Assembly (NCBI RefSeq): GCF_016862935.1
Contig: NZ_BONX01000031.1
Coordinates: 62,001 to 126,000 of the forward strand
Direction of reading: 5' to 3'
Origin: Plantactinospora mayteni
GTDB lineage: Bacteria > Actinomycetota > Actinomycetes > Mycobacteriales > Micromonosporaceae
Length of the DNA: 64,000 nt
Each line of letters begins with the position of its first letter. Position 1 is the first letter of the stretch. A program made the translations under genes and the position numbers. This document shows positions 11,217 to 57,040 of this stretch, in pieces. The notes under the pieces are model-generated. The model saw only the letters and a list, made by a program, of their open reading frames with translations, was not told the origin of the DNA and made no database searches.

Positions 11217-12500
11217 TTGTTCGGAGTGCTCGGCTTCGCGGGGGCGTTGACGCTGGTCACCGGCCTGATCCACCTCTACCTGTGGAAGCGGCTGGTCCGG
11301 GACACCACCCGGCCGGGGCGCTGGCGCCGGGCTGGCGGCGTGACTGTGCTGATCCTGGCCCTGCTCGCCCCGGCGACGCTGGTCGGCACCCGCCAGGGCT
11401 TCTACTGGCTGGCCTGGCCGGGCTACCTCTGGCTGGCCGTGATGTTCTACCTGCTCGTCCTGCTGGCCGTGCTGGAGATCCCGATGCTGGCGACCCGGCT
11501 GGCGCTACGCCGCCGCACCCGGGCGGTCGTACCGGCAGCCGCCCCGGCCGCCACGCCCGCCCCGGAAGCCGCCCCGGCCGCCACGCCCGCCTCGGCCGAC
11601 GCGCCGGCAGTCGCGCCCGCCCCGGAAGCCGTCCAGGCCGACGCGCCGGCACCGGGCCACGACCCGGGGAGGCGGCTGCTGCTCGCCCGGGGCGCCGCCA
11701 TCTTCGCCGGGCTCACCGCGACCGGGATCGTCGGGTACGGCGTCCGCACCGCCCTCGGCCCGCCGCAGCTCGACCGGGTGCAGATCCCGCTCGCCAAGCT
11801 CCCCCGGAGCATGGACGGGCTGCGGATCGCCACCGTCTCCGACATCCACATCGGACCGCTGGCCGGCCGGGCGCACACCGAACGGATCGTGGCGACCATC
11901 AACCGGCTCGACGCCGACCTGGTGGCGGTGGTCGGCGACCTCGTCGACGGTACCGTCGGCGAACTCGGTCCCGCCGCCGCACCCCTGCGCGACCTCCGGT
12001 CCCGGTACGGCAGCTTCTTCGTCACCGGCAACCACGAGTACTACTCCGGGGTCGAGGAGTGGGTGGTGGAGTTGGACCGGCTCGGACTGCGGGTGTTGCA
12101 GAACCGGCGTACGGAGATCCTGGCCCGGGGCGGCGTCCTCGACCTCGCCGGGGTGAACGATCCGGCCGGCGAGGGGCTGGGCTTCGCCCAGGGACCGGAC
12201 TTCGATGCGGCGCTCGGTGGTCGGGACCCGAGCCGGCCGGTGGTACTGCTCGCGCACCAGCCGGTCAACGTGCACGAGGCGGCGAAACACGGCGTCGACC
12301 TGCAACTCTCCGGGCACACCCACGGTGGCCAGATCGTGCCGTTCAACCTGCTGGTCGGGTTGCAGCAGCCGGTCGTCTCCGGGCACGCCACCATCGACGG
12401 TACCCAGCTCTACGTCACCAACGGCGCCGGCTTCTGGGGCCCACCCGTCCGGGTCGGCGCCCCACCCCAGGTAACCCTGGTCGAACTCCGCTCGCCCTGA
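11217..12500 (+). CDS. Membrane-anchored metallophosphoesterase
   Basis: A protein of 427 residues. The N-terminal 90 residues hold three hydrophobic segments. A linker of about 60 residues rich in PAAAPAATP repeats, a further hydrophobic segment (ARGAAIFAGLTATGIVGYGV), and a calcineurin-like phosphoesterase domain follow. All five metal-binding motifs are present: SDIHIGP, GDLVDG, GNHEYY, LLAHQP and SGHTHGG. The catalytic domain is probably extracytoplasmic and resembles YkuE/UDP-diacylglucosamine pyrophosphatase-like enzymes; substrate is unknown. The start TTG 11217 is supported by GAGGAGG ending 6 nt upstream. The moaD stop is 11 nt before it, so it may be transcribed with moaAD without a shared pathway. 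Confidence 0.88.
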   Translation: MFGVLGFAGALTLVTGLIHLYLWKRLVRDTTRPGRWRRAGGVTVLILALLAPATLVGTRQGFYWLAWPGYLWLAVMFYLLVLLAVLEIPMLATRLALRRRTRAVVPAAAPAATPAPEAAPAATPASADAPAVAPAPEAVQADAPAPGHDPGRRLLLARGAAIFAGLTATGIVGYGVRTALGPPQLDRVQIPLAKLPRSMDGLRIATVSDIHIGPLAGRAHTERIVATINRLDADLVAVVGDLVDGTVGELGPAAAPLRDLRSRYGSFFVTGNHEYYSGVEEWVVELDRLGLRVLQNRRTEILARGGVLDLAGVNDPAGEGLGFAQGPDFDAALGGRDPSRPVVLLAHQPVNVHEAAKHGVDLQLSGHTHGGQIVPFNLLVGLQQPVVSGHATIDGTQLYVTNGAGFWGPPVRVGAPPQVTLVELRSP

Positions 12501-12586: not shown

Positions 12587-12671
12587 GTCTCACCCGGCGC
12601 GACGCGTCGGCACGGCGGGACGGGTGCGGAATCACACTCTCGCGTGGCGACACGCGTCCAGAGGTGAGGGC

Positions 12672-15600
12672 GTGACAGGATGCGGCGTGTCTCCGTTGCG
12701 CGCCGCACCCGCTGACGGCTCCCCCTCCGCCGCCGTGCCCTTCGTCGCGGACCTGCACATCCACTCGAAATACTCCCGCGCGTGCAGCCGTGACCTCACC
12801 ATGCCGAACCTCGCCTGGTGGGCCCGGCGCAAGGGGATCAGCCTGCTCGGCACCGGTGACTTCACCCACCCCGCCTGGTACGAACACCTGCGCGAGTCCC
12901 TGCACCCGGCCGAGCCGGGGCTCTATCGACTCAGCCCGGAGGCGGAGCGGGACATCGCCCGGCGACTGCCGCCCCGGCTGTCGAGCGTCGCCGAGGCGAG
13001 CCCGATGCGCTACATGCTCAGTGTGGAGATCTCCACCATCTACAAGCGGGACGACCGGACCCGCAAGGTGCACCACCTGATCTACCTGCCCGACCTGGAC
13101 GCGGTGGCCCGGTTCAACAGCACGCTCGGACGGATCGGCAACATCGGCTCGGACGGGCGGCCGATCCTCGGCCTGGACTCCCGGGACCTGCTGGAAATCA
13201 CCCTGGAGGCCAGCCCGGACGGCTATCTCGTCCCGGCACACATCTGGACACCGTGGTTCTCCGCGCTCGGCTCGAAGTCCGGCTTCGACGCGATCGCGGA
13301 CTGCTACGCCGACCTCGCCGAGCACATCTTCGCGGTCGAGACCGGGCTATCCTCCGACCCCGAGATGAACTGGCGGGTGTCCAGCCTGGACCGCTATCGG
13401 CTGGTCTCCAACTCGGACGCGCACTCCCCGCCGGCCCTGGCCCGGGAGGCGACCGTCTTCGCCACCGAACTCGACTACTACGCCGTACGGGCGGCGCTGC
13501 GCAGCGGGGACGGGCTGGCCGGGACGATCGAGTTCTTCCCGGAGGAGGGGAAGTACCACGCGGACGGGCACCGGCTGTGCGGGGTCAACTGGGAACCGCA
13601 GCGGACCCGGGAGGCGGGCGGGCGCTGCCCGGAGTGCGGCAAGCCGCTCACGGTCGGGGTGTTGAGCCGGGTCGAGGATCTGGCCGACCGGCCGGACGGG
13701 CACCGGCCGGCGAACGCGCCGCAGGTCACCCACCTGATCCAGCTCGCCGAGATCCTCGGTGAGATCAACAAGGTGGGGCCGAAGTCGAAGACGGTGGAGG
13801 GGCAGCTCAACACCCTGGTCGCCGGTCTCGGTGCCGAGCTGGACATCCTCACCGTCACGCCGGTCGACGAGATCCGCCGGGTCGGCGGCGAACTGCTCGC
13901 CGAGGCGATCACCCGACTCCGGCGCGGCCAGGTACGCCGGGTCCCCGGCTACGACGGCGAGTACGGCGTGATCACCCTCTTCGAGCCCGGTGAGCTGTCC
14001 TCCGGCTCCGGCGGTGCTGGCCGGGGTGGCGCTGGGCAGGCGGAAACGCTCTTCGCGGACGCGCTCTTCGACGTGCCCGTGCCGCGACAGCGACCGCCCG
14101 CGGAGCCGAAGGCGCCGGCCCGGGCCGGCCGGCCCGGGCCGCCGGCGCCCGACGCCGCGGCCGAGCCGCGCCGCCGCCCCCGGGTCGCCACCCCGCCGGC
14201 CGAGCCGGCACCGCCGCTCGCCCCGCCGCCATCCCCGCACGAGCCCTTCGAGCCGATGCTCGCCGGCATGGAGGAGGTCGGCACCGGACTGCTCGACCGG
14301 CTCGACGCGATGCAGCGGGTCGCCGCCTCCGCCCCGGGCGGGCCGCTGCTGATCGTCGCCGGCCCCGGCACCGGCAAGACCCGCACCCTCACCCACCGGA
14401 TCGCGTACCTCTGCGCCGAGCTGAACGTCTATCCGGAGCACTGCCTGGCGATCACGTTCACCCGGCGAGCCGCCGAGGAGCTGCGGCACCGGCTCGACGG
14501 GCTGCTCGGGCCGGTCGCCGAGGACGTCACCGTCGGTACCTTCCACTCGCTCGGCCTGACCGTCCTGCGGGAGAACGCCCGGGCCGCCGGGCTGCCGGAC
14601 GACTTCCGGATCGCCGACGACACCGAGCGGGCGACCGCGCGGGCCGAGGCCGGTGACGACGACGCCACGTATGTGAAACTGCTGCGCGGCCAGGACCTGG
14701 TGGACCTGGACGAGCTGGTCAGCCTGCCGGTGACGCTGCTGCGCGACGACCCGGAGCTGGTCGCGCGCTACCGGGACCGGTGGCGGTGGATCTTCGTCGA
14801 CGAGTACCAGGACGTGGACGCCACGCAATACGAACTGCTCCGGCTGCTCAGCCCGGCCGACGGCAACCTCTGCGCGATCGGCGACCCGGACCAGGCGATC
14901 TACTCGTTCCGGGGCGCCGACGTGGCGTACTTCCTGCGATTCTCGGAGGACTTCGTCGACGCCCGGCTGGTCCGGCTGACCCGCAACTACCGGTCGTCGG
15001 CGCCGATCCTGGCCGCCGCCGGGCAGGCGATCGCGCCGTCCACGCTGGTCCGGGGCCGCCGGCTGGACCCGGCCCGGCTCGACCCGGAAGCCCCGCTGGT
15101 CGGCCGCTACCCGGCGGCGTCCGTCGCGGACGAGGCCGATTTCGTGGTACGCACCGTCGACGAACTCGTCGGCGGGCTGTCACACCGTTCCTTCGACTCC
15201 GGTCGGATCGACGGCCGGACCAGCAACGTGTCGTTCTCCGACATCGCGGTGCTGTACCGTACCGACGCCCAGGCGGCCCCGATCCTGGACGCGCTGGCCC
15301 GGGCGAACATCCCGGTGCAGAAGCGCTCGCACAACCGGCTGCGGGACCGGCCCGGCGTCTCGGTGATCGCCCGCGAACTACGGCACGCCGACGGCCTCGG
15401 CGGCTCGATCGCCGCCCGGGTACGCCTGGCCGGGCAGGTACTCGCCGAGCGGCACGCCACCCCGACCCTGGACGCCACCGGCGGGATCGGCCCGGACGAC
15501 ATCTGGACGGCTGCCGACCTGCTCACCCCGCTGGCCCGGCGCTGCGGCGACGACCTGGAGCTGTTCCTCTCCCAGTTGGCCACCGGCGCCGAGGTCGACG

Positions 15601-15953
15601 CGCTCGACCCGCGCGCCGAGGCGGTCACCCTGCTCACCCTGCACGCCGCCAAGGGTCTGGAGTTCCCGGTGGTCTTCCTGCCCGGCTGCGAGGACGGGCT
15701 GCTGCCGCTGCGCTGGCCCGGCTCGACGCCGACGGACGAGGAGGTGGCGGAGGAACGCCGGCTCTTCTTCGTCGGGCTGACCCGGGCACAGGACCGGCTC
15801 TACCTCAGCCATGTCGCCCGGCGGCTGCGACACGGCCAGGAGCGGGACTGCGTACCATCGCCGTTCTTCGACGCGATCGATGCCGGACTCTTCGAGCGGC
15901 TCGGCGACAACGCACCCCGACGCCCGAAGGACCGCCAACTCCGGCTGCTCTGA
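12672..15953 (+). CDS. EndoQ-type PHP nuclease fused to UvrD/Rep-type helicase
   Basis: A 1093-residue protein of two parts. Residues about 20-440 match endonuclease Q, a PHP-fold nuclease that nicks 5' of deaminated bases: DLHIHSKYSR (HxH at 29-31), LLGTGDFTHPAWY (60-70), VHHLIYLPD, PAHIWTPWFS (about 187), SNSDAHSPPA (about 246), and a zinc-ribbon segment with CGVNW (about 302) and CPECGKPLTVGVLSRVEDLAD (319 on; 3 Cys visible). A Pro/Ala linker (about 450-520) leads to a superfamily 1A helicase: AGPGTGKTRT (Walker A, about 564), VDEYQDVD (about 709), IGDPDQAIYSFRGAD, LTRNYRSS, TLHAAKGLEFPVVFLPG and FFVGLTRAQDRLYLS. Start is GTG 12672 behind GAGGTGAGGG. Likely role: incision at damaged bases followed by unwinding; coupling in one chain is inferred. 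Confidence 0.88.
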   Translation: MTGCGVSPLRAAPADGSPSAAVPFVADLHIHSKYSRACSRDLTMPNLAWWARRKGISLLGTGDFTHPAWYEHLRESLHPAEPGLYRLSPEAERDIARRLPPRLSSVAEASPMRYMLSVEISTIYKRDDRTRKVHHLIYLPDLDAVARFNSTLGRIGNIGSDGRPILGLDSRDLLEITLEASPDGYLVPAHIWTPWFSALGSKSGFDAIADCYADLAEHIFAVETGLSSDPEMNWRVSSLDRYRLVSNSDAHSPPALAREATVFATELDYYAVRAALRSGDGLAGTIEFFPEEGKYHADGHRLCGVNWEPQRTREAGGRCPECGKPLTVGVLSRVEDLADRPDGHRPANAPQVTHLIQLAEILGEINKVGPKSKTVEGQLNTLVAGLGAELDILTVTPVDEIRRVGGELLAEAITRLRRGQVRRVPGYDGEYGVITLFEPGELSSGSGGAGRGGAGQAETLFADALFDVPVPRQRPPAEPKAPARAGRPGPPAPDAAAEPRRRPRVATPPAEPAPPLAPPPSPHEPFEPMLAGMEEVGTGLLDRLDAMQRVAASAPGGPLLIVAGPGTGKTRTLTHRIAYLCAELNVYPEHCLAITFTRRAAEELRHRLDGLLGPVAEDVTVGTFHSLGLTVLRENARAAGLPDDFRIADDTERATARAEAGDDDATYVKLLRGQDLVDLDELVSLPVTLLRDDPELVARYRDRWRWIFVDEYQDVDATQYELLRLLSPADGNLCAIGDPDQAIYSFRGADVAYFLRFSEDFVDARLVRLTRNYRSSAPILAAAGQAIAPSTLVRGRRLDPARLDPEAPLVGRYPAASVADEADFVVRTVDELVGGLSHRSFDSGRIDGRTSNVSFSDIAVLYRTDAQAAPILDALARANIPVQKRSHNRLRDRPGVSVIARELRHADGLGGSIAARVRLAGQVLAERHATPTLDATGGIGPDDIWTAADLLTPLARRCGDDLELFLSQLATGAEVDALDPRAEAVTLLTLHAAKGLEFPVVFLPGCEDGLLPLRWPGSTPTDEEVAEERRLFFVGLTRAQDRLYLSHVARRLRHGQERDCVPSPFFDAIDAGLFERLGDNAPRRPKDRQLRLL

Positions 15954-46049: not shown

Positions 46050-46829
46050 ATGCGTATCGGAGCCCATGTCGACCCCACGGATCCGTTGGACGAGGCGGCC
46101 CTCCGGAAAGCGGACGCGGTCCAGTTCTTCCTCGCCGATCCACAGAAGGACTGGAACACCCCGCAGCCACGGGCCGACGCGGCCAGGCTGCGCGAATCCG
46201 AGGTGGACATCTACATCCACGCGCCGTACGTCATCAACCTCGCCACCACCAACAACCGGATCCGCATCCCCAGCCGGAAGCTGTTGCTCGGGCACGCCAC
46301 CGCCGCCGCCGCGGTCGGTGCCAAGGGCCTGATCGTGCACGGCGGGCACGTGAACGCGGGCGACGACATCGCCAGGGGCTTCGACAACTGGCGCAAAGCG
46401 TTCGCCCAGGCCGCCGAGTCCGGCGGGCACGACGTCCCTGTGCTGATCGAGAACACGGCCGGCGGCGACAACGCCTGCGCCCGCCGGTTCGACAACCTGG
46501 CCCGGCTCTGGGACGCGGTGGGGGAATACGACGTGGGCTTCTGTCTGGACACCTGCCACGCGCACGCGGGCGGCGAGGACCTGCTGGACATCGTCGACCG
46601 GGTACTGGCGATCACCGGCCGGATCGACCTGATCCACGCCAACGGCTCCAAGGACGCCTTCGGCTCCGGCCGGGACCGCCACGAGAACCTGGCCAGCGGC
46701 ACCATCGATCCGCAACTGGTGGTGGCGGTGGTCCGGGCGGCCGGCGCGCCGGTCATCGTCGAGACACCTGGCGGGGTCGACGGCCAGGCCACGGATATCG
46801 GCTATCTCCGCGACCACGTAGGCCGGTAG
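46050..46829 (+). CDS. nfo: Deoxyribonuclease IV (AP endonuclease family 2)
   Basis: A protein of 259 residues, TIM-barrel AP endonuclease. The zinc-binding signatures are visible: DIYIHAPYVINLATTN, GLIVHGGHV, VLIENTAGG (Glu ligand), GFCLDTCHAHAGG (Asp/His ligands), DRHENLASGTI and VIVETPGG (Glu). The enzyme cleaves abasic sites in base-excision repair. ATG 46050 is placed by the TAGGCT box 7 nt upstream. It is followed by a large membrane protein after 13 nt. Confidence 0.93.
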   Translation: MRIGAHVDPTDPLDEAALRKADAVQFFLADPQKDWNTPQPRADAARLRESEVDIYIHAPYVINLATTNNRIRIPSRKLLLGHATAAAAVGAKGLIVHGGHVNAGDDIARGFDNWRKAFAQAAESGGHDVPVLIENTAGGDNACARRFDNLARLWDAVGEYDVGFCLDTCHAHAGGEDLLDIVDRVLAITGRIDLIHANGSKDAFGSGRDRHENLASGTIDPQLVVAVVRAAGAPVIVETPGGVDGQATDIGYLRDHVGR

Positions 46830-56530: not shown

Positions 56531-57040
56531 TCAGGCCCAGGCGCGCTCGAAGGCGACCCGCGCCTCCAACTCCAGCAACTGGCGCTTGCGGGGCAGGCCG
56601 CCGCCGAAGCCGACCAGCTTGCCGCCGGCACCGACGATCCGGTGACAGGGCACGATCACCGGGATCGGGTTGCGGTTGCAGGCCACCCCGACCGCCCGGG
56701 CCGCAGCGGGATCGCCGACCGCCGCCGCCACCTCGCCGTAGGTGCGTGTCTCGCCGTACGGGATCTTCGACATCTCGGTCCAGACCGCCCGCTCGAACTC
56801 CGAACCCCGGCGCACCGAGAGCGGCACGGCGAACTCCGTCAACTCCCCGGCGAAGTACGCCCGAAGCTGCTCGACCGCCGTCGTCAGCCGGGCGGCGTCC
56901 TGGCCCTGGCCGGGTGGGCCGGGCAGGGCGGTGGCGGGCAGCGCCCCTTCCACCGGCCCGAAGTGCACGCCACAGACGCCGACGTCGTCGACTCCGACGG
57001 AAAGCTCCCCGATCGGGGAGTCGAGCACGATCCAGCGCAT
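56531..57040 (-). CDS. ogt: Methylated-DNA--protein-cysteine methyltransferase Ogt
   Basis: A protein of 169 residues. The C-terminal methyltransferase domain has IPYGETRTYGEVAAAVG, CNRNPIPVIVPCHRIVGAGGKLVGFGGGLPRKRQLLELE, with the alkyl-acceptor Cys in PCHR. The N-terminal half includes TEFAVPL and YFAGEL. It repairs O6-alkylguanine and O4-alkylthymine by suicide transfer. ATG 57040 is chosen; upstream ATGs lack homology. Divergent from a tetR gene. Confidence 0.92.
   Translation of the reverse strand: MRWIVLDSPIGELSVGVDDVGVCGVHFGPVEGALPATALPGPPGQGQDAARLTTAVEQLRAYFAGELTEFAVPLSVRRGSEFERAVWTEMSKIPYGETRTYGEVAAAVGDPAAARAVGVACNRNPIPVIVPCHRIVGAGGKLVGFGGGLPRKRQLLELEARVAFERAWA

Follow-up and report, generated by a model that had tools for sequence, protein, structure and literature searches.

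Architecture of the fusion protein

In this work, we analysed a 64,000-nucleotide stretch of the 9.84-Mb genome of the actinomycete Plantactinospora mayteni (contig C31, NZ_BONX01000031.1, positions 62001–126000; hereafter the window), focusing on one gene that joins an EndoQ-like nuclease to a UvrD-type helicase. The gene lies on the forward strand at 12672..15953 and consists of a single uninterrupted frame of 1093 codons plus a stop, counted from the GTG start as given. Its product is laid out as an EndoQ domain (residues ~24–437), a disordered Pro/Ala linker (447–528), a superfamily 1A (SF1A) helicase (~540–1076) and a terminal QLRLL peptide (1089–1093). A sequence-only reading of the window had proposed a 1093-residue EndoQ–UvrD protein, and this is borne out: the frame is open and, among the best 80 loci retained from a scan of genome contigs with the full-length query, a design that favours fusions, 79 have both halves in one frame, which argues that the fusion is not a chance product. 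The closest named relative, from Plantactinospora endophytica (L048), is 96% identical.

The motifs named in that reading are also found in the protein. In the nuclease half these are HIHSKYS (starting at residue 29), GTGDFTHP (60), HIWTPWF (190), SNSDAHSP (246), CPECG (319) and GVLSRV (329), and in the helicase half PGTGKTRT (565), TFHSLG (623), VDEYQD (709), GDPDQAIYSFRGA (737), RNYRSS (771), TLHAAKGLEFP (989) and GLTRAQD (1035).

Nuclease domain

The EndoQ domain (12741..13982, forward strand) comprises a PHP fold, a zinc ribbon and a C-terminal part, and is recognizable from both sequence and predicted structure. A phmmer search of residues 1–445 against the PDB returned four matches at E ≤ 0.001, three of which are EndoQ structures (3.8e-47 for 5zb8 to 1.9e-46), while the fourth, v31Bagel8, looks unrelated (E 1.2e-4). 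A profile built from 18 rows matched the archaeal PfuEndoQ at E 3e-68 over profile positions 4–414 of 433. In the AlphaFold2 model (mean predicted local distance difference test, pLDDT, 85.6; predicted template-modelling score, pTM, 0.57), the domain superposes on 5zb8 and 7k30 with a target-normalised template-modelling score of 0.88–0.89 and a root-mean-square deviation of 2.8–3.6 Å, at a sequence identity to PfuEndoQ of only ~30%. No PHP family of Pfam-A was matched by the protein at E ≤ 0.001.

The N-terminal part does match TIGR00375, the model against which the sequence-only reading had proposed to compare it, although at 154.6 bits (E 4.7e-45) the score lies under the curated cut-off of 326.6. 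This model, an NCBIfam ‘hypoth_equivalog’ entry whose function was never tested, likewise misses a stand-alone actinobacterial EndoQ-like protein (L091, 189.7 bits) and two other fusions (148.8 and 150.9 bits). With all three fusions examined scoring too low for this NCBIfam EndoQ-type model, annotation probably records proteins of this kind just as helicases.

In PfuEndoQ, E76, H84 and H139 bind a zinc that is essential for cleavage, and their exchange for alanine abolishes activity, whereas H139, G169 and S171 exclude T and A from the base pocket (PMC8307549). By alignment, these residues correspond to E119 (13026..13028) and H134 (13071..13073), putative catalytic zinc ligands, to H190 (13239..13241), which would serve both the zinc and the base pocket, and to G225 and S227 of a G225-L-S227 stretch (13344..13352), all on the forward strand. 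Each is conserved in 82 of 82 aligned rows, which comprise 77 of the 80 scan loci, four further sequences (L090, L091, L093 and L094) and the window; the scan loci outside the alignment are L064 and L073, examined separately, and L071, which has only a helicase half on its contig.

The remaining metal-site positions are conserved to a similar extent. D249 of SNSDAHSP (13416..13418, forward strand), which is Asn in PDB chain 7k31, is kept in all rows, and the H29-x-H31 metal motif in 81 of 82, the exception being L091 with Tyr at the first position. A zinc ribbon, H300-x2-C303 ... C319-x2-C322 (13569..13637, forward strand), is predicted to bind zinc, with C303, C319 and C322 present in every row and H300 in 81 of 82; PfuEndoQ has Cys rather than His at this first ligand. 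The stretch from E119 to H134 is seven residues longer than its PfuEndoQ equivalent. Given that the PfuEndoQ catalytic and pocket residues are conserved in all 82 rows, the domain looks active and lesion-specific, and its original assignment to EndoQ is supported by these residues together with the predicted fold.

Motor domain

The C-terminal half (residues 540–1076; 14289..15899, forward strand) was first read as a UvrD-type helicase, and matches to Pfam UvrD-helicase (2e-63) and UvrD_C (6.6e-31), together with SF1A motifs that are nearly invariant across aligned relatives, agree with this, as do PDB sequence and fold matches of UvrD/PcrA type. By sequence, PcrA and UvrD are its nearest relatives of solved structure, and structural alignments give 25–32% identity to UvrD, PcrA and Rep. 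The pcrA equivalog model scores 364 bits against a cut-off of 911, and the UvrD and Rep models also remain under theirs; this half thus appears to be a member of the PcrA/UvrD/Rep superfamily, with orthology to any of the three not supported by equivalog scores. A separate PcrA/UvrD-like helicase is encoded elsewhere in the host genome (L110, 312 bits).

UvrD-type motors translocate 3′ to 5′, and the 2B subdomain is regarded as restraining Rep, PcrA and UvrD. Two stretches, which we take to be subdomains 2B and 1B, are reduced in the window protein, with 59 residues between aligned blocks against 132 in PcrA for 2B, and 13 against 59 for 1B. Reduction of 2B is family-wide, with 69–103 residues across fusions with uncut ends (61–103 if rows with cut or broken frames are included). 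A shrunken 1B was considered as a second family-wide trait and rejected, as this stretch spans 45–76 residues in 32 of 33 fusions outside Micromonosporaceae (19 in the remaining one, L081); within Micromonosporaceae it has 30 residues in 38 of 48 rows, 41–52 in seven and nine in three. The last three, Catellatospora and Hamadaea records (L038, L039 and L040), represent an extreme natural reduction for an SF1A helicase.

Tether and terminal peptide

The two halves are joined by a Pro/Ala linker (residues 447–528; 14010..14255, forward strand) that is predicted to be disordered (pLDDT under 50), so that their relative placement is free in the model, in keeping with its pTM. The chain ends in QLRLL (residues 1089–1093; 15936..15950, forward strand), a predicted β-clamp-binding motif on a tail that is also disordered in the model, and a feature absent from the earlier description of the protein. 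The β-clamp consensus is QLxLF, usually C-terminal (PMC4549789), and fusions from distant phyla carry QLSLF, QLDLF, QLELF and QLKLF, which match it, whereas Micromonosporaceae tails finish in L, I, V or M rather than F, the window's QLRLL likewise departing from the consensus at the last position.

The pattern Q[LM]x[LF][LFIVM] occurs in the last 20 residues of 76 of 78 fusions with uncut ends, and is flush with the terminus in 73, compared with 0.4% of shuffled tails; the 78 rows exclude L091, which is not fused, L033, whose frame breaks, and L051 and L063, which run into contig ends. By group, the motif is present in all 47 Micromonosporaceae rows and in 29 of the 31 rows from elsewhere, the two fusions lacking it carrying QETLF (L060) and QRTLF (L062). 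The separately examined L064 and L073 add QLSLF and QLDLF, which brings the count to 78 of 80 uncut-end fusions, the window included. None of seven other SF1 helicase frames of the host genome, matched to their listed lengths, has a clamp motif at its end; a frame on contig C72 and matches on C26, C12 and C3 were left out of these controls.

Archaeal EndoQ uses a C-terminal PCNA-interacting peptide (PIP box) to bind PCNA, which stimulates the enzyme, and clamp motifs have been noted in bacterial EndoQ homologues (PMC4858679). In the fusions, the motif is found at the chain terminus despite a helicase of ~550 residues separating the EndoQ domain from the tail, and this conserved C-terminal tag probably fastens the protein to the replication clamp. 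Furthermore, the linker itself contains QAETLF (14037..14054, forward strand), a possible second clamp-binding motif and a weaker candidate than the tail: of 81 fused linkers, 46 have Qxx(x)LF just past the nuclease domain and 78 have LF or LLF/LLD. These linker peptides are possibly a relic of the C-terminal clamp peptide that EndoQ carried before the fusion.

Distribution and evolutionary history

By the titles of their records, the fusions among the best 80 loci fall into nine groups: Actinomycetota, Pseudomonadota, Planctomycetota, Acidobacteriota, Verrucomicrobiota, Myxococcota, Binatota, Poribacteria and Melainabacteria. Labels of metagenome-assembled genomes may err; the title of L051, for example, reads Proteobacteria, but its partner in trees is an actinobacterial row. 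As the scan used a full-length query and retained the best loci, it is uninformative on the frequency of stand-alone EndoQ, and many of its 590 pattern matches could be plain UvrDs. In domain architecture, 79 of the 80 loci are fusions, in nine phyla as titled. The exception (L071:10001-11782, Micromonospora sp. 15K316) has only a helicase half on its contig, starting from residue 515 inside the linker, which reflects either domain loss or misassembly.

In an even sample of Actinomycetota, TIGR00375 was matched in 9 of 396 genomes, seven of them with EndoQ-like loci and the remaining two with weak, partial matches in short frames. Five of the seven are fused, one lies on a contig that ends within the linker (L092) and one is stand-alone. 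The idea of an ‘alternative route in actinomycetes’ fits these data poorly: the fusion is spread over nine titled phyla, yet only 7 of 396 Actinomycetota genomes have an EndoQ-like locus, compared with 42 of 49 genomes of the host's own family. These 42 and another four from 32 genomes of other families of the order give 46 matches among 81 relatives; for 44 of the matches the frame spans 934 codons or more, and for the other two it has 750 and 464. No relative was found in plasmid and phage records, and none was confirmed in viral contigs, which were searched by two peptide patterns only.

Trees of the two halves group rows mostly by phylum, with 11 label changes for EndoQ and nine for the helicase, where the minimum is eight and shuffled labels give means of 19.2 and 17.4. 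Across 37 rows, pairwise distances in one half correlate with those in the other at 0.73, and conservation is higher in EndoQ (mean distance 0.35) than in the helicase (0.48). Because the two trees largely agree, the data suggest one old fusion whose halves were passed on as a pair, some lineages having lost it and a few perhaps having gained it by transfer; proof of a single origin would need more, since many deep forks are weak and only one stand-alone protein is in the tree. That protein (L091:8380-9624, reverse strand) ends in QLSLL and sits on a very long branch, 2.8 changes per column from the fusions.

Genomic context

The frame taken as the upstream gene, on the same strand, terminates at 12500. 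A second GTG at 12687..12689 (forward strand) offers a plausible alternative start that would yield a protein of 1088 residues; the AGGA sequence six bases 5′ of it, resembling a ribosome-binding site, is conserved in 11 of 12 aligned Micromonosporaceae upstream regions. Further 5′ of the start, GCGTGGC at 12642-12648 is invariant across these 12 sequences amid varying surroundings, and is a possible promoter or regulator site.

We compared the flanks of 41 loci and the window, recounted without the gene's own frames, using naive frames of at least 110 codons, a threshold at which short or diverged partners are missed. Micromonosporaceae loci have neighbours in common. Outside this family, only three neighbour clusters occur in at least three of 31 loci; an ABC-transporter ATPase forms the largest (five loci) and a sigma-factor-like frame another (three loci), and an operon or partner gene was rejected on these grounds.

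The sequence-only reading had pointed to nfo and ogt in the same window. The ogt gene is present (56564-56800, reverse strand), ~40 kb from the fusion gene and on the opposite strand, while the stretch resembling nfo, the gene of the abasic-site (AP) endonuclease IV (46056-46781), scores 118.5 bits, under the nfo cut-off of 129.65; the match over this cut-off sits on another contig (C10). Neither gene is evidence of a shared pathway. Overall, the fusion would be an additional repair route and not a replacement, given that the host genome also encodes four UDG-family matches, EndoV, Nfo and the separate PcrA/UvrD-like helicase. The gene seems to function as a self-contained unit that supplements standard repair.

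Model and alternatives

What the comparative data point to is a protein with an apparently intact nuclease centre and base pocket, intact motor motifs, a flexible tether, a conserved clamp-type terminal peptide and halves that have stayed coupled over time. From this we infer its activity, loading strand and clamp binding, and lean, with modest confidence, towards a clamp-tethered, glycosylase-free nuclease–helicase for deaminated DNA, which would nick 5′ of the lesion and strip the damaged strand. Within this model, we hold the direction of unwinding to be less likely than either the nuclease specificity or the binding to the clamp.

The QLRLL tail, judging from its conservation, would keep the protein on the β sliding clamp, close to DNA that has just been synthesised or repaired. 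There, the EndoQ domain, as its residues and fold suggest, would flip out uracil, hypoxanthine, xanthine or an abasic sugar and cut the backbone just 5′ of it, an incision that, by the chemistry of other EndoQs, would leave a 3′-OH and a 5′-phosphate on the lesion strand. The long flexible linker would let the 3′-to-5′ UvrD-type motor load at the fresh nick and, moving on the intact strand, peel off the strand bearing the lesion. A clamp-bound polymerase could then extend the 3′-OH, and a flap nuclease or exonuclease would remove the flap. Fusion and a reduced 2B would couple unwinding to nicking by the same molecule, and so commit the nick to glycosylase-free long-patch repair.

Published accounts of EndoQ are consistent with such a sequence of events. 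Its incision leaves a 3′-OH (PMC4357722), a review assigns repair of the nick to a DNA helicase acting with FEN1, polymerase and ligase (PMC8438529), and its link to PCNA has led to the suggestion that the enzyme may be located at freshly synthesised DNA (PMC7690668). Since that review places a separate helicase after the EndoQ nick, the fusion would supply the post-nick helicase in the same chain, and it fits both this order and the suggested localisation.

The order of the two activities is where an alternative has most room. The nuclease could act on deaminated DNA while the helicase mainly opens the DNA before the cut, scanning and presenting single strands, or clears proteins, which we consider unlikely, if worth keeping in view. 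PfuEndoQ is reported to cut uracil and hypoxanthine in single strands efficiently (PMC11354406) and the flexible linker permits either order of action; set against this are the helicase step after the nick in PMC8438529 and the displacement of nicked strands by UvrD in mismatch and excision repair (PMC7690668), and no sequence feature here tells the two orders apart. Rather improbable, in turn, is a domain that has shifted to another substrate, such as abasic sites only, misincorporated nucleotides or some other altered base, making the fusion a different repair enzyme. The low identity to PfuEndoQ, the His for Cys in the zinc ribbon and the longer E119–H134 stretch would be in line with such a shift, but the residues that bar T and A from the pocket are the very ones conserved in every row (PMC8307549 for their roles), and the characterised archaeal and Bacillus EndoQs are alike in specificity (PMC6202378, PMC8438529). 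That the protein is an anti-phage enzyme destroying uracil- or hypoxanthine-containing foreign DNA seems very doubtful, despite PADLOC matches (1e-69 to 1e-67) to the helicases GajB and RTasHel and a suggestion that bacterial EndoQ may contribute to antiviral defence (review PMC8307549), as the best stretches among the PADLOC matches listed (25 of 50 families) all lie within the helicase half, as expected for any UvrD, the gene is found in most sampled Micromonosporaceae with flanks common within the family, the plasmid, phage and viral searches produced no match or none confirmed, and the clamp motif indicates replication or repair.

The clamp-tethered nick-and-strip model itself has several points weighing against it. 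A 3′-to-5′ motor on the nicked strand would travel away from the lesion, and productive loading is assumed. With four UDG-family matches, EndoV and Nfo in the host, a need for an extra route is not evident, no conserved repair partner adjoins the gene in the flanks compared, and the gene is absent from 7 of 49 genomes of the same family and 28 of 32 of other families of the order. Finally, the clamp-motif counts rest on related sequences, and the TIGR00375 score falls short of its curated cut-off.

More tentatively, and with slightly less than even confidence, we propose an unnamed, phylum-spanning bacterial excision pathway in which one clamp-bound polypeptide finds the lesion, cuts without a glycosylase and strips the strand with its own motor, acting alongside replication. 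If true, it would be a bacterial counterpart of the archaeal EndoQ–PCNA ‘repairsome’ with a built-in helicase step, and would give bacteria glycosylase-free uracil and hypoxanthine repair on top of their existing UDG, EndoV and Nfo. A fusion with motor and clamp tag across nine phyla as titled supports a helicase step after the EndoQ cut, a step that can be tested directly with one recombinant protein.

Comparison with known systems

EndoQ has been described as euryarchaeal, apart from a small number of bacteria that include Bacillus and Desulfovibrio (PMC4357722, PMC8438529). EndoQ, UvrD and the clamp motifs of bacterial EndoQs were already known; what is new, as far as the portions of literature searched extend, is their fusion, which is undescribed in those portions, including those of PMC7776575 and PMC3820547, while domain databases may well list the architecture.

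With the archaeal enzymes (PfuEndoQ and TkoEndoQ; 5zb8, 7k30-7k33), the fusion shares the fold of the whole domain, the catalytic and pocket residues and a clamp-binding peptide at the extreme C-terminus, a PIP box in archaea. The archaeal proteins, however, are stand-alone chains of 421-424 residues without a helicase, bind PCNA and not the β clamp, and have Cys where the fusion has H300. Bacterial stand-alone EndoQs, of Bacillus pumilus, B. subtilis and here L091, likewise combine an EndoQ domain with a C-terminal clamp motif (QLSLL in L091; PMC4858679 for bacterial homologues) but lack the helicase half, a comparison made here through L091, with the Bacillus sequences outside the alignment.

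On the motor side, the fusion has all the helicase motifs checked in common with UvrD, PcrA and Rep, and differs from them in that its motor sits behind EndoQ, has a reduced 2B and is followed by a terminal clamp motif. AddA, RecB, AdnAB and Gabija GajAB also couple an SF1A motor to a nuclease, but their nucleases have unrelated folds, follow the motor or reside on a separate chain, and target DNA ends or foreign DNA, not base lesions.

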